Assembly: GCA_026418055.1 (NCBI GenBank)
Contig: JAOACB010000001.1
Coordinates: 1 to 64,000, forward strand
Direction: 5' to 3'
From: Fimbriimonadales bacterium
Lineage (GTDB): Bacteria > Armatimonadota > Fimbriimonadia > Fimbriimonadales > Fimbriimonadaceae
Length of the DNA: 64,000 nt
Position numbers and translations under genes: made by a program. Under the pieces are notes generated by a model. That model saw only the letters and a list, made by a program, of their open reading frames with translations, did not search any database and had not been told where the DNA came from. Of the stretch, positions 52,064 through 61,911 are shown in pieces; the first letter of the stretch is position 1, and each line of letters begins with the position of its first letter.

Positions 52064-53341
52064 CTATCGTTGGACGGCTTGCGCGCCGCGGTTGCCTCGA
52101 AGGAGCTCCAAGGCTCTCCGGAGCACCGGGTCGCCGTCTCGCAACAGAGACTGATGGGTCAGACGGACCTCGACGTCGGGCAACGCTCCGCGACCCTCGA
52201 GAAGGACGCCTTTGGGTGTGCGGAAGTCGGCGAAGGCATACTGCAGGCGATTGCCGCAGGGCAACTTCTCGACGACGGAGGGAAGCACCGCTCCAGCCGT
52301 ACGGGAACCCACGAGTTTCGCCCGGCCCAGTTCCTGCAGGCCTGCCGCGAGGATCTCCGAGGTGCTGGCCGAGGTTCCATCGATCAGCACGACCAGCCTG
52401 CCGGAGTAGAGGGGAGGCTGTGGCGAGAAGCGGAACCTCGTCTCCCCCGCGCGCATCCGCATGATGCCTAGACTAGCAGGAGCGTCGACGAACTTCGCGG
52501 CGATCGGGATCGCCATCGCCCCCACTCCGCCTGGGTTGCCCCGCAGATCGAGGATCAGTCCGGGAGCTCCCCGATACGAGCCAATCGCCCGTTGAAGGGG
52601 CTCCAGCAGCGGCATCATAAAGACGTTGAAGCGGATGTAGCCGATCCCGCCAGGCAGTCGGCGTTGCTCGATGCGTGCGCGGATCGGAGGCAGCTCGCCG
52701 AACCGCACGATCTGGCCTTGCGCGGGCGCGCGGCGCATCGAAACGGACACTTTTCGCAACCTTCCGTCGAGGAAGACCGCCTGCACCGGTTGGCCGACTG
52801 GGCCGGCCAGCAACGCCCGCATCGCGCCGGCGACTTTAAGGTTCAGGAGATTGCGCTGGGCCGGGTCGTTCCAAATGGCTCGAACCACGGGCGCCACCGG
52901 TCGGGAGTCGACCTCCAACAGAATCCAGCCTGGCTTCACGCCCGCGCTCGCCGCCGGGGATCCGGGCGCAACCTCCACTACGGTCGGCCGCCCCTCGACC
53001 CAGCCGATGGAGATGCCGGTCTCTCCGCTCCCGTTCACGGGGTCCGAGGGCCCGCTCGCGTACGCCGCCGAGGGGATGACGCCGAAGTGCGAGAGGGGCA
53101 GCTCGCCCAGCATAGCATTGAGAACGGATAGATACTCCGCATCGGAACCCGCCACCTCGACCTTCTGCCGGTATCGCTCCTTGATCGCCGCCCAATCGAC
53201 GCCACCGAACTTCGGGTCGAAGAAGTGATCGTTGACCCTGCTCCAGACGATCTCGAACGACTGGAGTCTGGTTTGCTTGGGGATGTCCGCGCGGGCGAGA
53301 GCGGCGGCCGCCAGGGCGGCGAGGGCTAGGTGTCTGAGCAC
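52064..53341 (-). CDS. S41 family C-terminal processing protease
   Basis: 425 residues; exported serine protease with PDZ domain. GTG 53341 opens a signal peptide (LRHLALAALAAAALARADIP). The PDZ region is ISIGWVEGRPTVVEVAPGSP and AGVKPGWILLEVDS (residues about 110-145). The catalytic part has LPGGIGYIRFNVF, LILDLRGNPGGVGAMA and LVVLIDGTSASTSEILAAGL, where the Ser of TSASTSE is the nucleophile. KLVGSRTAGAVLPS and FRTPKGVLLEGRG complete the fold. TAACCT lies 6 bases before GTG. It follows an ECF sigma gene and precedes the decayed LolA-like copy. Confidence 0.9.
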   Translation of the reverse strand: MLRHLALAALAAAALARADIPKQTRLQSFEIVWSRVNDHFFDPKFGGVDWAAIKERYRQKVEVAGSDAEYLSVLNAMLGELPLSHFGVIPSAAYASGPSDPVNGSGETGISIGWVEGRPTVVEVAPGSPAASAGVKPGWILLEVDSRPVAPVVRAIWNDPAQRNLLNLKVAGAMRALLAGPVGQPVQAVFLDGRLRKVSVSMRRAPAQGQIVRFGELPPIRARIEQRRLPGGIGYIRFNVFMMPLLEPLQRAIGSYRGAPGLILDLRGNPGGVGAMAIPIAAKFVDAPASLGIMRMRAGETRFRFSPQPPLYSGRLVVLIDGTSASTSEILAAGLQELGRAKLVGSRTAGAVLPSVVEKLPCGNRLQYAFADFRTPKGVLLEGRGALPDVEVRLTHQSLLRDGDPVLRRALELLRGNRGAQAVQR

Positions 53342-53358: not shown

Positions 53359-53919
53359 TCAGCCGAAGACGACACCGAGGTCCTTGCGCAACAGAGACCT
53401 CGCCCGGAAGAGCCAGCTCTTGATCGTGCCTTCGGGCTTGTTCAAGGCGACCGCGATCTCTCCAACGTCCATGTGGCGGAAGTGCCGCATCAGAATGATC
53501 TCGCGGTAGCGCTCGGGCAGGCGCTCGATTGCGCTCAGCACCGCGCCGTGCTGAATCTGGGAGGTGGCCGCCTTCTCCATCTCGAAAGGGTCCGCGATCT
53601 TGTTCTGGTGGTCGTCCAGCGGCTGGCCGTCCCGCCTGCGGTCGCGCACCACGTCCACGCAACAATTCGCGCAAATCCGACAGAGCCAAGGGCGGATCGG
53701 TCGCTCCGCGTCGAACTCGGAAAGGTTCCGCCACGCCTTGAGCACCGACTCCTGCACGACGTCGTTGGCATCGTCCGGGTTGCGAAGCATGCGCAACGCC
53801 ATGCTGTACAGCATGGGTCTGTGACGATCCATCAGCAACTCGAACGCAACCTTCTCCCCCGCCTGCGCCCTCTGGATCAGGTGCGTCTCCCAACCCACCA
53901 CCCTTTGCGTCTGCTTCAT
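53359..53919 (-). CDS. ECF-type RNA polymerase sigma factor
   Basis: 186 residues. Region 2: FELLMDRHRPMLYSMALRML, then NPDDANDVVQESVLKAWRNL and RPWLCRICANCCVDVVRDRR (residues about 27-97). Region 4: LPERYREIILMRHFRHMDVG, EIAVALNKPEGTIKSWLFRA. ATG 53919 has AAGGA 8 bases upstream, although the codon before it (GTG 53922) is also a possible start. Unlike the other two ECF genes here, no anti-sigma gene follows; the next gene, an S41 protease, could be a target or regulator. Two adjacent cysteines in the ICANCC stretch might be redox sensitive, which is only speculation. Confidence 0.92.
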   Translation of the reverse strand: MKQTQRVVGWETHLIQRAQAGEKVAFELLMDRHRPMLYSMALRMLRNPDDANDVVQESVLKAWRNLSEFDAERPIRPWLCRICANCCVDVVRDRRRDGQPLDDHQNKIADPFEMEKAATSQIQHGAVLSAIERLPERYREIILMRHFRHMDVGEIAVALNKPEGTIKSWLFRARSLLRKDLGVVFG

Positions 53920-54077
53920 CACGCGGTTCCTTCAGAGAATCTCCGACCGTATCCTTTCAGACGCTTCAAAAAGATGGCGAGGTGCGGGCTCAGGGTCCAT
54001 CGTCCTTGGGTGCGAATCCAGCCTCGGAATGTTGCCGGATGACCTGTCAACTTTGCCGTATAGGCTCTCGTTGGTCC

Positions 54078-54102
54078 TGCCGACATTACCAGTATGTCGG
54101 CA
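54078..54102 (+). repeat. Perfect inverted repeat overlapping a start codon
   Basis: TGCCGACAT (54078-54086) and ATGTCGGCA (54094-54102) form a 9-bp perfect palindrome around TACCAGT. The right arm begins with the ATG of the gene at 54094, so either a repressor site or an RNA hairpin could cover the start. Confidence 0.7.
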
Positions 54103-55185
54103 CGGACGCTGATGCAGTGGTGCCTGGTTGGGATGCCAGGGTTTCTCATGGCCTTTTTGAGCCTGGGAGCCCGCACCTACCGCGATGGCTTCGAGTTTCG
54201 GAGCTACAACCGAACGCAGAACGAGACGATCGAGGCCTATGCTCAGCCGCTGCGGGGGGTGGACAGCCTGCCCAAGACCATGCCGACTCCCTCGGACTTT
54301 CCGAGGATCCGCCGAGTGGCCGAAGTGTGGATCAACGGTCTCCATTCCGGCGCTCTGCGCCCGATTCCACCCAGCCACGCAGATGAGGAGATTCCCCGGG
54401 GCGCCCGGGAGCAGATCCTGGTGGGGAGATCCTCCTTGGTCTCGATGCTGAAGAGCGCCTCCCACGTCGCCTCGAAGGCGGGCAGGAAGGAGGAGGCGAT
54501 TCGGTTCCTGCTGCAGGCCTACGAAGTGCTCGAGGTGAGCAAGACCAGCGACGCCTTCCTCATGGGTCTTTCGGCTCGAAGCCAATGGACGACGGTGGCG
54601 CACCTTTCCCGGGAGCTGAAGGGCTGGAAGGCGGAGGATCGGAGGCGGTGGGTCGCCGAGCTCCGGCGTTTGCTCGCCATCACTTCCGAATCATCGAGGA
54701 AAGCCAAGGAGATGGAGATCGGTCTGAAGCAGGGGACTCCCGAAACGGTTCGGATGGTCGGTGGCATGGAGATCCGAGACCTGAAGACGCTGCTCGCCTA
54801 TCGCTCCCGGAATCTCGCGCTCCTCACGAGCAAGGGAAGGACCGGAACGATCCTCGAGTCCCAAGGCGTGATCGCCGTGCAGGCCCAGCGGGAGCAGGAA
54901 GCCGCCTTGCGGCTCGTTCTGGACTCGGTGCAGGGTCTCCGGCCTCTACCAACGCTGATGGCGGAGCAGGCCCTGCCCGCGAAAGAGACGACGCGGCGCG
55001 GACAGTCGGTGCGTCCTAGCGACAGGGTGCCACCCTGGTCCTACCCCGCATGGAAGAGCCGAGTCCGGTGGTTCGCCCCGAACGGGCGGCCGATGGGATG
55101 GTCCGGTGAACCGCGCCACCGACCGGTCACTGGATCCACAGCGCCCCGTCCGGTCGCATCTCTACGGCCAATGCCGAGTCCCTGA
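54094..55185 (+). CDS. Unknown membrane-anchored protein
   Basis: 363 residues, not recognised. The N-terminal hydrophobic segment (about 7-25, MQWCLVGMPGFLMAFLSLGA) should anchor or export it. The rest is helical (SSLVSMLKSASHVASKAGRK, EEAIRFLLQAYEVLEVSKTS, WKAEDRRRWVAELRRLLAIT), possibly TPR-like. The last 60 residues are Pro/Arg/Trp-rich and run 59 bases into the 3' end of the convergent anti-sigma gene, so the true stop may have been displaced. The ATG is in the right arm of a perfect inverted repeat. It is divergent from the ECF sigma gene at 53359-53919. Confidence 0.72.
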   Translation: MSARTLMQWCLVGMPGFLMAFLSLGARTYRDGFEFRSYNRTQNETIEAYAQPLRGVDSLPKTMPTPSDFPRIRRVAEVWINGLHSGALRPIPPSHADEEIPRGAREQILVGRSSLVSMLKSASHVASKAGRKEEAIRFLLQAYEVLEVSKTSDAFLMGLSARSQWTTVAHLSRELKGWKAEDRRRWVAELRRLLAITSESSRKAKEMEIGLKQGTPETVRMVGGMEIRDLKTLLAYRSRNLALLTSKGRTGTILESQGVIAVQAQREQEAALRLVLDSVQGLRPLPTLMAEQALPAKETTRRGQSVRPSDRVPPWSYPAWKSRVRWFAPNGRPMGWSGEPRHRPVTGSTAPRPVASLRPMPSP

Positions 55186-55978
55186 GGGCTTGGGTCGCGG
55201 CGCCCACGCTGTCGGTCCCATCGAGCTTCCAAACGATGTCCGACCGCTTGGAGTCCGTCGCCACGACCACCGGGACGCGATAGCGGTCCGCCAAGGCCAC
55301 GGCAAGGTCCCTCACCGTCCCCCGGCCTTCGATCGGCAGCGACTGCCGAAGTCCGGGGATCGCGACGAACAGAGGCTCGGCCTGACCCTCCACCGCGACC
55401 TGCAGCAACGCGGGCTGCGGGGTGCGCACCACGACGGGGCTCCGCAGCATCTGGCCCATCGGGAAGCCTCGGCCGTCGAGCCTCACACGGGCGAGCTCTC
55501 GGCCTTGACCCAGCTCGCGGATCACCACGGTCTTCTCGCCGGCGGTCTGGTAGGTCACCACGGTCTCTCCGCCGCCGGACCGCACGTACAGGCGATCAGG
55601 CAGCTCGCTCGGCCCCATCGAGGCGATCGGCGAGCCGGACCGGTTGGTCAGCGTGATGCCCGCGGACACGAGGAGCAACGCCGCGATGCCGGTCGCCGTG
55701 GCCGTTCGCCAGTTGCGATACCAAGGCTCTCGGCCCCTGGCTTTCTCCCAAGCGTACCGATCGATCCTCGCCATGACGCGGTCGTGCAGGTCGAAGCCGG
55801 GCTCCGGGACCTTGGAGTGGACCAGCGACAGGGCCCGACAGGTCGCCGCGAACGCGTCGTACTCGGCACGCAGGCGCTCGTCAGCCGCCAGGCGCCGCTC
55901 CAGCGACGCTTTCATCGCCGCATCCAGCTTGCCCTCCCAATAGGCTGAGAACAGTTCCCTTGCCTTGTCCGCGTGCAT
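55127..55978 (-). CDS. Anti-sigma factor with C-terminal STN-like domain
   Basis: 283 residues. Residues 1-70 (HADKARELFSAYWEGKLDAA, SLERRLAADERLRAEYDAFA) are an anti-sigma N-domain without the zinc His-Cys motif. One membrane segment lies at about 92-110 (TATATGIAALLLVSAGITLT). The outer part has GGGETVVTYQTAGEKTVVIR, and the last 65 residues (GTVRDLAVALADRYRVPVVV to ALRDSALAVEMRPDGALWIQ) match the STN (secretin/TonB short N-terminal) fold pattern. STN normally belongs to TonB receptors or secretins that talk to such anti-sigma factors, so having it here is unusual. It lies 32 bases after the partner sigma gene. Confidence 0.82.
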   Translation of the reverse strand: MHADKARELFSAYWEGKLDAAMKASLERRLAADERLRAEYDAFAATCRALSLVHSKVPEPGFDLHDRVMARIDRYAWEKARGREPWYRNWRTATATGIAALLLVSAGITLTNRSGSPIASMGPSELPDRLYVRSGGGETVVTYQTAGEKTVVIRELGQGRELARVRLDGRGFPMGQMLRSPVVVRTPQPALLQVAVEGQAEPLFVAIPGLRQSLPIEGRGTVRDLAVALADRYRVPVVVATDSKRSDIVWKLDGTDSVGAATQALRDSALAVEMRPDGALWIQ

Positions 55979-56010
55979 GGTCGGTCTCTCCGTCTGACCG
56001 TTGGACTTCC

Positions 56011-56598
56011 TTAACCCCGGAAAAGTTCCAAGTCCTCCGACAAGAGATCTTTGAGCGAGAGCCGCGCACGGTTCAGCCGACTCTTCACGGTTCCAATCGG
56101 CAGATCGAGGATCTCGGCGATCTCCTCGTAAGACAGCATCTCGCCATGGTACAGCACGATCATCGTGCGCTGGTGCTCGGGGAGCGCGTCGATCGCTCGC
56201 TGCAGCGCCCTGTGGCGTTCTCCCTCCAAAGCGGTGTCGGAGGGCAGGGGGCCGCTGTCCTGCAACTGCAGCTCCATCTCCGAGTCGTCCTCCGCCGACA
56301 TGCGGCTTAGGCTCACCGCCGGGCGGGAGCGTTGCTTCTTCTGGGCATCCAGGTAGCAGTTCGTGACGATGCGATAGAGCCAGGTGCCGAACGCGCTGTC
56401 CTGGCGGAAGTTCCTCAGGGAGGAGTAGACGCGGAAGAACGCCTCGGCGACGATGTCCGCCGCCTCCTCCGGGTTTTTCGTCAGGCGGAAGGCGTATTGG
56501 TAGGCGCGCTTCTCGTGCTTGCGCACCAGCTGGTCGAAGGCTTCCCGTTCTCCACGGACAGCCCTCTCGATCAGCAGGCGGTCTTCGCTACCCGACAT
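56011..56598 (-). CDS. ECF-type RNA polymerase sigma factor (RpoE/SigW-like)
   Basis: 195 residues. Region 2 has EAFDQLVRKHEKRAYQYAFR, LTKNPEEAADIVAEAFFRVY and FGTWLYRIVTNCYLDAQKKQ. An acidic linker (SAEDDSEMELQLQDSG) leads to region 4: LPEHQRTMIVLYHGEMLSYE, EIAEILDLPIGTVKSRLNRA. It starts 9 bases after the DUF4446 gene and precedes the STN-bearing anti-sigma factor, so DUF4446-sigma-anti-sigma likely form one operon read from the TATACT box near 57136. ATG 56598 gives the normal family length. Confidence 0.93.
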   Translation of the reverse strand: MSGSEDRLLIERAVRGEREAFDQLVRKHEKRAYQYAFRLTKNPEEAADIVAEAFFRVYSSLRNFRQDSAFGTWLYRIVTNCYLDAQKKQRSRPAVSLSRMSAEDDSEMELQLQDSGPLPSDTALEGERHRALQRAIDALPEHQRTMIVLYHGEMLSYEEIAEILDLPIGTVKSRLNRARLSLKDLLSEDLELFRG

Positions 56599-56607
56599 GG
56601 CTGGAGA

Positions 56608-57108
56608 TCAAGGCGCCTCTTGCGCCAGGCGAAGGGCCTCCCTTTCCTCCGGCGAGAGATTCTTGGGGGACTTCCAGTCCTCGATCGGTTTGCAGTACAC
56701 CCTGCAGTCGTTGCGTCCGATCAAGCTCGTGAGCACGATGCCGTTGCCGAGGTCGTCGAGCATCGCCAGAGCGAAGCTCTGTTGGCCGCCGACATCCTCG
56801 AACGCGTCGAAGCGGACGAGCGCGGCCCGGCGGTTCGATCTTCGGAGCGCGCTCTCCAGCCGTCCCCCGAGGTCCTCCAGCGCTCGAACCCGGTCGTCGA
56901 GGCGCACCTTCTCCACCAGGTGGTGCTCGAGCAGCCGCTCGAGGTTCGCCCCGCTGGCCTCGTCAAGCAGCGTCCTCCAACGGCGGTAGAGTCGGCGCAG
57001 CTTGAGCCACAGCCCTGCCACCGCGCAGGCGACGATTATAATGAGCGCAAGGGCCGTGAGAAGCCACGGGCCGGTGTTTTCGCTGAACGTGCGCAGAAGG
57101 CTGTCCAT
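56608..57108 (-). CDS. DUF4446 family membrane protein
   Basis: 166 residues. ATG 57108 starts before a membrane segment (PWLLTALALIIIVACAVAGL, residues about 14-33), followed by a helix (LKLRRLYRRWRTLL) and a coiled coil. The conserved family end is clear: VRFDAFEDVGGQQSFALAML, DDLGNGIVLTSLIGRND, RVYCKPIEDWKSPKNLSPEE. The family is known from Firmicutes and others without a settled function. It heads the operon with the ECF sigma factor. The longer frame to 57207 was rejected because it overlaps the divergent lepB start. Confidence 0.88.
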   Translation of the reverse strand: MDSLLRTFSENTGPWLLTALALIIIVACAVAGLWLKLRRLYRRWRTLLDEASGANLERLLEHHLVEKVRLDDRVRALEDLGGRLESALRRSNRRAALVRFDAFEDVGGQQSFALAMLDDLGNGIVLTSLIGRNDCRVYCKPIEDWKSPKNLSPEEREALRLAQEAP

Positions 57109-57135: not shown

Positions 57136-57141
57136 AGTATA
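57136..57141 (-). promoter_or_regulatory. -10 element (TATACT) of the DUF4446-sigma operon
   Basis: Minus-strand TATACT, 27 bases before ATG 57108, in the divergent gap to lepB. No convincing -35 box. Confidence 0.45.
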
Positions 57142-57187
57142 GCGGAAGCGACGGCCGGCTTCGAATGGTCCGGGGCGGTCCCAACCC

Positions 57188-57736
57188 ATGCGGAAGATGG
57201 CGATCACAGGCTTCGGCTTTGTGCTGCTGATGGTGCTGGCGCTGGCCGTGCTGTTCTATGCCAACTTTCGTACCGTCGTTGTGAGCGGCCCCTCCATGGA
57301 GCCCACGTTCAAGAACGGCGACCGTCTGTTGGCCAGCCGAGCTTACTGGCTGATCGGGCCGATCCAGAAGAAGGACATCGTGGTCGTGCGGCCCGAGGGC
57401 TCGAGGTCCTACGTGATCAAGCGGGTCGCCTACATGCCGGGGGAAACCGTCGACTATCAGAACATCCCCGACAACTGGTCCATCACCGATGGTCCGTACA
57501 AGGTTCCCGAAGGCAAGCTGTACGTTCTGGGAGACAACTGGGCGAATTCGGAGGACAGCCGCAAGTATGGACCCGTGAGCGAGAGCGCCATCCTGGGGAA
57601 AATCGTCGTTCTGCCTGCGATGTGGCAGGTTGCCTTGAAGGCCATCTTAGCCTTGACCGCGGCGTACTTCGTCGCGCTGTACGTTCTGGAGCGCCTGCGG
57701 GCGGGGCGAGCCCGGGCATCGGAGTCCGCTGGATGA
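57188..57736 (+). CDS. lepB: Signal peptidase I
   Basis: 182 residues; cleaves signal peptides at the outer face of the inner membrane. The N-terminal membrane segment (about 7-27) is followed by the catalytic serine motif SGPSMEPTFKNGDRL (Ser near residue 36) and the general-base lysine in SYVIKRVAYMPGE. VLGDNWANSEDSRKYGPV is the conserved box E-like region, and ILGKIVVLPAMW precedes a second, C-terminal membrane segment (ALKAILALTAAYFVALYVLE), which is unusual for the simple type. ATG 57188 gives a basic N-terminus (MRKM). The stop overlaps the Nudix start (ATGA). Confidence 0.92.
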   Translation: MRKMAITGFGFVLLMVLALAVLFYANFRTVVVSGPSMEPTFKNGDRLLASRAYWLIGPIQKKDIVVVRPEGSRSYVIKRVAYMPGETVDYQNIPDNWSITDGPYKVPEGKLYVLGDNWANSEDSRKYGPVSESAILGKIVVLPAMWQVALKAILALTAAYFVALYVLERLRAGRARASESAG

Positions 57737-59748: not shown

Positions 59749-61911
59749 ATGACGCTGCTCCAGGCTGTTCTGGCATGCTGGTTCTCGGCCCTTCAGGCCG
59801 GCTCAACTTCAGGGGACGGCGTGCGGCTGGAACTCGCCGCGATGCCGCTCTCTCGGGCGATCCCCGAGCTGTCGCGCGCCCTGGGTCGATCGCTGGCAGT
59901 CTCCTCCGAGCTCGCAGGGGAGGTGGTTGTTCTCCGCGTCCAAGGCGCTGAGCCTGCGGAGGTCCTCCGCAGGCTGGCTGAAGCCACAGAAGCCACTTGG
60001 GTGGAGCAGAACGGCCTGCTCAGGTTGGCTCTGACCGACGCTCAACGAAAGCAGCAGCGGGACGCCGAGCTCGCCTACCGAGAGAGGGCCGTCGGCGAGG
60101 CCATCCGCAAGATGGCCGAGCCGCTGGCGAGGCACCCGAACTTCGACCAGCAGGCGATGGAGGAGGCGAGCCAGCGGTCTCAGGGAGCGGCCGTTCGGCA
60201 GGGCGGATTCTCTCCCTTGGCCATGGTCCAAGCAGGGCGCAACGTGATCGCGGGCAACCCCGCGACGCCCACGGGCAGGGCTGTCGCGCGGCTGGCCCGC
60301 TTGATTGGTGCACGGGCGCTGGCCCAGTTGGGCGACGGCGAGCGGATCGTGTTCAGCACGCAGCCGAATCCGATGCAGCGTCGGTTTCCCAACGGAGGAT
60401 TCGACGCCATCCGCCTGTTGGTGGCGGAGCAGAGCCGCTACGCCGACGCCGAGGGAGCGCGCCAAGACGGAGGCATCGAGCAGCTGCTTGGGGCGGTCTT
60501 CGGCGGCGGCACCCGTAGCGCGGTGTCCGGCACGCCCGCCAAGGCCCTGCTGAGCGTGCAGCGGCAGAAGCTTCTGGATGGGTACGAGTTCCGCATCGCG
60601 CTGTTCGATGGTGACGGTCGCCAGGTCTTCACGGACGGCATGACGATGCTGCTGGAGACGAGCGGTCTGAACCTCTTGGACGCGCTGGGTCAACCTCCGA
60701 GCGACGGCGAGGAGATCGAACTCAGCCCCGTCTCCCGCGAGTTGCTGCAGAGCCTCCGCGGGCTCACCGGTCTCGCCTTCGGCCAAGCTCCGTCGCTTGG
60801 AATGAGTCCAGAGGTTGCAGGCAGGCTTCGCCGTCCAGACTTGTACGAACCGCTCGAGTACTTTCACGGCGAGGTGTTCCGGGGGATCGGCAAGGCTTAT
60901 GGCAAGAACGTCGTCGCGGCGATCCCCGACGGGGCTCTTGCGTCCAGTTCCTTCCTGTTGCCAGGGCAGAAGCTCACCGTCTCGGCCTTCCTGAAGGGTC
61001 TGCAAGATCTGAAGACGATGACGGTGCAGACGGAGGGGGATTGGATCGTGGGGAAGCCCACCCGTCCGTGGTACCAGCGGCAGCAGCGACAGGACCGTGC
61101 GGCCTTGGCTCGTCTCATCGCGTCGGCGGGAGCGAGGGGCACGCTCCGACTGGATGACTTGGCTTCTTACGCTTTGACGAACCCGCCGTTGCTCGAGAGC
61201 CCGGTGGCGTCGTTGCTGGCGTTGCTCACGATTCCCGGCGCCGCTTCCAACCCCAACTCGATGCAGTGGGAGCTGCTGCGGTTCTACGGCTCCCTCACCG
61301 CGGGCCAGCGTCAGAGGCTGGCCGCGGGCGACGCGATCCCCCTGCGGGAGCTGACACCGAGCCAGCGGGGCAACGTTTGGCGCATGGTGTACCTGCCTGG
61401 TTTCCTCGGCTTGGGTGGACTCAGCGTGGCGGGGGGATTGCCGGCGCCCCTCGCGAGAACGGAACCCACGGAGATCCTCCCCAACGGCTTGCCTCCCGGA
61501 TCGTCCCTACAAGTGGGCATCCAGCGTTCGGAGGTGGTGGTGGACGCGGGCGAGTCGAGGCCGGGGTTGCGTTTGTTCTCGGCTCTGGGGGCCGAGGAGC
61601 TGGGGGCCATGATGCAGCTTCGGGAGGACCCCACGATGGGTGCCATGGTCGGTCCGCTGTTGCCCGACTGGAAGCAGTTCCGGCTCGGCGAGAAGGTTCG
61701 GTACAGCTTCCTGTTCCGCTTCACTCCGGAGGTCGTCCTCGGTGGTTCGCTCGAGGACGTCGTGCTGGACGAGCGCGCGCCGGCGGCTTCCTTCGAGCAG
61801 CTGCCGCAAGCGTTCCGCGATCGGGTGCAGCGAGCGCGCGAGCAGATGAGGCAGGGGGCGGCCCAACTCGGCTCTCTGTTCGGGGGAGGCCAGGCGCCCC
61901 CACGGCCCTAA
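59749..61911 (+). CDS. Large exported protein with STN-like domains
   Basis: 720 residues. An N-terminal hydrophobic stretch (TLLQAVLACWFSALQAGSTS) acts as a signal peptide. Residues about 24-95 (RLELAAMPLSRAIPELSRAL, GRSLAVSSELAGEVVVLRVQ, EVLRRLAEATEATWVEQNGL) match an STN domain. A second STN-like stretch is at about 367-445 (FRGIGKAYGKNVVAAIPDGA, LTVSAFLKGLQDLKTMTVQT, then EGDWIVGKP). The rest is unassigned, with Arg/Gln/Ala-rich helices. No secretin or TonB barrel is visible. It may be a periplasmic partner of envelope machinery such as pili or signalling. Its stop overlaps the carB stop by 4 bases. Confidence 0.72.
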   Translation: MTLLQAVLACWFSALQAGSTSGDGVRLELAAMPLSRAIPELSRALGRSLAVSSELAGEVVVLRVQGAEPAEVLRRLAEATEATWVEQNGLLRLALTDAQRKQQRDAELAYRERAVGEAIRKMAEPLARHPNFDQQAMEEASQRSQGAAVRQGGFSPLAMVQAGRNVIAGNPATPTGRAVARLARLIGARALAQLGDGERIVFSTQPNPMQRRFPNGGFDAIRLLVAEQSRYADAEGARQDGGIEQLLGAVFGGGTRSAVSGTPAKALLSVQRQKLLDGYEFRIALFDGDGRQVFTDGMTMLLETSGLNLLDALGQPPSDGEEIELSPVSRELLQSLRGLTGLAFGQAPSLGMSPEVAGRLRRPDLYEPLEYFHGEVFRGIGKAYGKNVVAAIPDGALASSSFLLPGQKLTVSAFLKGLQDLKTMTVQTEGDWIVGKPTRPWYQRQQRQDRAALARLIASAGARGTLRLDDLASYALTNPPLLESPVASLLALLTIPGAASNPNSMQWELLRFYGSLTAGQRQRLAAGDAIPLRELTPSQRGNVWRMVYLPGFLGLGGLSVAGGLPAPLARTEPTEILPNGLPPGSSLQVGIQRSEVVVDAGESRPGLRLFSALGAEELGAMMQLREDPTMGAMVGPLLPDWKQFRLGEKVRYSFLFRFTPEVVLGGSLEDVVLDERAPAASFEQLPQAFRDRVQRAREQMRQGAAQLGSLFGGGQAPPRP

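Follow-up and report, generated by a model that had tools for sequence, protein, structure and literature searches.

An STN-tailed anti-sigma factor in a conserved ECF sigma operon of Fimbriimonadaceae, including genomes without detected TonB-dependent receptors

Introduction

What does the STN domain of an anti-sigma factor bind when the genome that encodes it has no detectable TonB-dependent receptor? In current understanding, an STN domain on such a protein supplies the docking half of TonB-receptor signalling and normally communicates with iron-uptake receptors. This question, which is a testable one, is raised by a locus in the 64,000-nucleotide stretch of Fimbriimonadales DNA analysed here (the window). 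An earlier note on this DNA had seen in it an anti-sigma protein with a terminal STN-like domain and no adjacent receptor gene, and had named the STN protein encoded at 59749-61911 as a possible counterpart. We give a probability of roughly 0.7 to the reading that the locus encodes an ECF sigma factor together with an anti-sigma factor that has the build of a FecR-type sigma regulator but no coupling to a TonB-dependent receptor. The conservation of STN-tailed anti-sigma factors where TonB receptors are not detected suggests that the module may work outside that system. What sets the locus apart is this setting; the fusion itself is already known from FecR-type regulators.

Results

A conserved DUF4446-sigma-anti-sigma operon

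The sigma and anti-sigma genes are co-directional on the minus strand, with a gap of 32 bases between them, and their open reading frames lie exactly where the earlier note had placed them (Table 1). The closest NCBIfam models for the sigma gene are SigW/SigM/RpoE-like, all below their cut-offs. The anti-sigma protein matches the anti-sigma-like model NF052375 with E=1.4e-11, under that model's cut-off; of the 53 family members in our alignment, 52 match the same model. The first gene of the operon encodes a DUF4446 protein and likely starts at 57108 rather than at 57207. The order DUF4446-sigma-anti-sigma was found in 21/21 loci compared, and the same row recurs in loci of the further families f2, f4 and f5: conservation of the operon extends over the order and takes in many genomes where no receptor was detected. 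Matches to the anti-sigma factor were recovered from nearly all Fimbriimonadaceae searched, usually as one full-length copy per genome. Our literature searches returned nothing joining DUF4446 with a sigma factor, and nothing on anti-sigma or ECF factors in Fimbriimonas or Armatimonadetes.

An ECF-type promoter was looked for at the head of the operon, and a conserved housekeeping-like -10 element was found there instead. This putative promoter element, CGCTATACT, has one copy in the window against 0.02 expected, and the same or a similar TATACT-type element stands at the equivalent place in most Fimbriimonadaceae loci. Hence, no autoregulation by the ECF sigma factor is visible; the conserved element suggests that the operon is expressed from a housekeeping promoter, with control exerted after translation.

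Several further genes lie around the operon. A convergent gene of unassigned function (54094-55185, plus strand) shares 59 bases with the anti-sigma gene at the latter's 3' end and has a homologue in 13 of 20 other loci, usually as its immediate downstream neighbour. A second ECF sigma gene (53359-53922, minus strand) has no recognised anti-sigma gene adjoining it and is followed by a gene for an S41 (Prc/CtpA-like) peptidase with a PDZ domain (52064-53341, minus strand); homologues of this second sigma factor occur at an equivalent offset in the loci of several relatives. In another family of the phylum (genome G093, L128:1170-3973), two tandem anti-sigma-like genes stand behind one ECF sigma gene.

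Table 1. Features of the operon, of the anti-sigma factor and of the formerly proposed partner, in window coordinates
Feature	Position	Strand	Basis
CGCTATACT, sigma-70-type -10-like element, putative operon promoter upstream of the DUF4446 gene	57136..57144	-	Conservation
DUF4446 gene, first of the operon	56608..57108	-	PF14584, E=4.4e-38
195-aa ECF sigma factor, presumed to pair with the anti-sigma factor	56011..56598	-	Pfam Sigma70_r2 (E=1e-16), Sigma70_r4_2 (E=3.5e-17)
Membrane anti-sigma factor, 283 aa + stop	55127..55978	-	NF052375 match, AlphaFold model, 53-member alignment (A1)
Cytoplasmic anti-sigma domain, zf-HC2/RseA_N-like, residues about 1-81	55736..55978	-	Helical in model; zinc ligands lost
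Single transmembrane helix, residues about 90-111	55646..55711	-	Helix in model and hydrophobic stretch in sequence
Periplasmic seven-stranded Ig-like beta sandwich, residues about 129-207	55358..55594	-	AlphaFold strands, Foldseek
C-terminal STN-fold domain, residues about 215-283	55130..55336	-	AlphaFold, Foldseek, Pfam matches of orthologues
720-aa protein with N-terminal STN/N0-like domain, outside the conserved locus	59749..61911	+	Profile matches, homologues

Cytoplasmic and middle domains of the anti-sigma factor

The anti-sigma factor is organised as a cytoplasmic anti-sigma domain, a single transmembrane helix, a periplasmic beta domain and a terminal STN domain. In its full-length AlphaFold model, obtained with 53 homologues (mean pLDDT 86), the cytoplasmic part is helical over residues 1-82, and a low-confidence linker separates the membrane helix from the middle domain. 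The cytoplasmic domain descends from the zinc-binding zf-HC2 type and has since lost the ligands: C3, H29, C33 and C36 are replaced by A, R, D and L in the window protein, and 48 of the 53 members have none of the ligands of the C..H-x3-C-x2-C pattern. All four are kept in three orthologues from sister families (L061, L108 and L109), three of the four in L110, and they are lost in nearly all members from Fimbriimonadaceae. The loss of the zinc site from a zinc-binding anti-sigma domain can thereby be followed inside a single order.

The middle domain looks, in the model, like a seven-stranded Ig-like sandwich rather than a FecR domain. Its Foldseek neighbours are mostly Ig-like sandwiches, with E-values of 0.005 or higher; a profile match to designed Ig proteins (8bl6, E=8e-8) was taken as a resemblance of the middle-domain fold only. 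The FecR profile (PF04773) is absent among the matches listed for the 53 members and has no match over its cut-off in the genome. The sole recurrent GT, and as such the candidate for a Gly-Thr self-cleavage site, is G220-T221. It is not conserved, since T221 is present in just 18 of the 53 members, most of the others having S, N, D, K or G at this position.

The C-terminal STN domain

Searched alone against the Pfam, NCBIfam and PDB sequences, the window protein gave no STN match, and the STN signal was reached via homologues and structure only. Two full-length sister-family orthologues exceed the Pfam STN (PF07660) cut-off of 28.4 bits, namely L108 with 29.6 and L123 with 32.8 bits, and both also have an N-terminal zf-HC2 domain over its cut-off; among isolated C-termini 12 of 59 match STN, the best with E=2.4e-9. 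Thus, the profile search that the earlier note had advised came out positive for orthologues and negative for the window protein itself; these orthologues settle the identity of the domain as STN.

The structural models agree with the domain call. With 53 and with 59 homologues alike, AlphaFold models residues 217-282 as a beta-alpha-beta-beta-alpha-beta-beta unit, mostly at pLDDT above 90; one of these models, made of the last 80 residues alone, has pLDDT 89 and pTM 0.79. As full-length Foldseek searches are dominated by the Ig-like domain, the C-terminal domain was searched from this separate model. Its first 50 neighbours include FoxA, GspD N0, BDI_1681, FpvA, PupR, PupB, FecA, XcpQ, PulD, InvG and PilQ: they are mainly secretin N0 domains, signalling domains of TonB receptors and anti-sigma factors, accompanied by gp44-like phage tail proteins, which share part of the STN fold. 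The best E-value is 0.11 and no match is individually significant, so it is the composition of the list that counts and no single match. From the model and the identity of these neighbours, the C-terminus has the beta-alpha-beta-beta-alpha-beta fold of STN domains, and prediction gave no other fold.

The second STN helix is apparently shortened in a few relatives, and the domain may therefore be drifting there. The full-length domain order was also recovered, by profile alignment or reading, in families f2, f3, f4, f5, f7 and f11. With the tail present in other families that have the conserved operon, its distribution indicates that it probably goes back to the ancestor of the order, and perhaps further.

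Absence of detected TonB components

Profile searches for Plug, TonB barrel and TonB_C, which were positive in control genomes, detected none of the three in the window's own genome, a 97%-complete MAG. The earlier note was thus right that no TonB-dependent receptor gene adjoins the anti-sigma gene, and none was detected genome-wide either. The barrel search covered 37 Fimbriimonadaceae genomes and detected none in 27, of which 25 keep the anti-sigma gene. TonB receptors are still present in some relatives; three sampled from these comprise a plug and a barrel, with no STN signalling domain detected. Since no TonB receptor was found in the genome, the sensor probably responds to another input.

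Discussion

Relation to known anti-sigma factors

The earlier note had taken the STN domain of such systems to come from the receptor only. This premise is incorrect: PupR comprises an anti-sigma domain (ASD, 1-82), a transmembrane segment (86-104), a juxtamembrane domain (CJM, 110-238) and an STN domain (250-324) (PMC7186176), and FoxR was modelled with the same architecture, including a C-terminal STN subdomain (PMC11637429). An STN-tailed anti-sigma factor is therefore not unprecedented. With FecR, PupR, FoxR and FpvR of Pseudomonadota the window protein shares the succession of anti-sigma domain, one membrane helix, periplasmic beta domain and C-terminal STN, as well as an adjoining ECF sigma gene. 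Unlike them, it is without a FecR (PF04773) domain, its modelled seven-stranded Ig-like middle domain contrasting with the 14-stranded juxtamembrane domain of FecR-type regulators; its cytoplasmic domain is zf-HC2-derived; and no TonB receptor or TonB was detected in its genome.

The FecR-like anti-sigma factors of Bacteroidota (FecR_C, PF16344) likewise have a C-terminal STN-like fold, and one of them, BDI_1681 (4m0n), is among the nearest structural neighbours of the C-terminal domain described here. The family differs from them in that just 2 of its 59 members give a FecR_C match, both weak (best E=0.13), and in that a receptor gene is not nearby. The N-terminal domain is related to that of the zf-HC2/ZAS anti-sigma factors (RsiW, RsrA, RseA-like), whose CHCC zinc ligands are those kept in the sister-family orthologues; RsiW (5wuq) was a weak profile match (E=0.14). 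To our knowledge, these zf-HC2/ZAS anti-sigma factors are without a terminal STN domain.

A proposed mechanism and its possible partners

We propose that the N-terminal helices would tether the sigma factor to the inner membrane, and that the Ig-like and STN part would dock on a periplasmic partner, which would shield the anti-sigma factor from a site-1 protease. As in FoxR and PupR, taken as analogues, protease access is probably governed by the periplasmic part. The docking partner would most likely be another STN/N0-type envelope protein, engaged through beta-sheet pairing; were it lost or changed, cleavage by the site-1 and then by an RseP-like site-2 protease would release the sigma factor. 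The genome encodes RseP-type M50 proteases.

The pairing with the 720-aa protein of 59749-61911, as the earlier note had it, we regard as very improbable. Both proteins have an STN-like domain, some homologues of the 720-aa protein matching GspD/SPI-1 N0 weakly, and the genes lie within 4 kb of each other (3.8 kb apart, on opposite strands) in the window and on one contig in G001 of the same genus. Co-occurrence is uninformative because both families are nearly universal, and linkage and exceptions were used in its place. The linkage held in G001, and none of the compared loci from beyond the genus showed it; in G002, also of this genus, contig edges conceal it. The anti-sigma gene is usually single, whereas the other family has 1 to 14 matches per Fimbriimonadaceae genome, often 5 to 14, and in G010 (100% complete) and G021 the anti-sigma gene is present but that family has no detected member. 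Compared by profile, the window's two STN domains are in register, yet the similarity is weak; this sits poorly with the pairing and was not used as evidence. It is possible that a different STN-bearing envelope protein binds the anti-sigma factor. The genome's other STN carriers are secretins, encoded on contigs C33, C71, C115 and C135, and STN/FecR_C-bearing proteins, with STN proteins on C51, C81 and C44. Secretins, with at least one in 58 of 61 genomes searched, are plausible candidate partners. That the partner is the N0 domain of a type IV pilus or type II-like secretin, whose assembly the sigma factor monitors, is nevertheless an unlikely reading. Secretins with STN/N0 domains are abundant (six secretin matches in the genome), the two best non-self places of the A2 profile in this genome, though weak, are secretins, and in the small genome G030 neither a secretin nor the anti-sigma gene was detected. 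Against this, G030 is reduced in general, no gene linkage exists, and G076 and G078, both incomplete, have the anti-sigma gene and no detected secretin.

The STN domain may instead need no other STN protein: it would self-associate or cap the Ig-like domain, the signal being a ligand, envelope stress or a protease. This we consider possible, if on balance doubtful. It accords with the finding that, in the loci examined, the operon has no linked gene for an STN partner, and with the variation of the STN domain among relatives, which suggests relaxed constraint, but in studied systems STN domains are protein-protein modules (PMC11637429). The reading as a relict FecIR system whose receptor was lost is favoured by the FecR-like domain order and by the persistence of TonB receptors in some relatives. 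We think it quite improbable: many genomes in which receptors went undetected still keep the gene as one conserved copy, neither the middle nor the cytoplasmic domain is FecR-type, and the three sampled receptors had no STN. Returning to the preferred reading, of a FecR-like regulator detached from TonB-dependent receptors, a tentative and rather unlikely generalisation would be that TonB-independent, STN-based sigma signalling is widespread in Armatimonadota, with the inner-membrane anti-sigma factor reading, in place of an iron receptor, the state of an STN/N0 envelope machine, most plausibly a secretin.

Two STN-related proteins deserve separate mention. The protein of 59749-61911 belongs to a lineage-expanded family of about 750 aa with no assigned function. 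On contig C51 of the same genome, a 338-aa protein (L005:1117-2130) matches both STN and FecR_C and is possibly a tandem STN protein.
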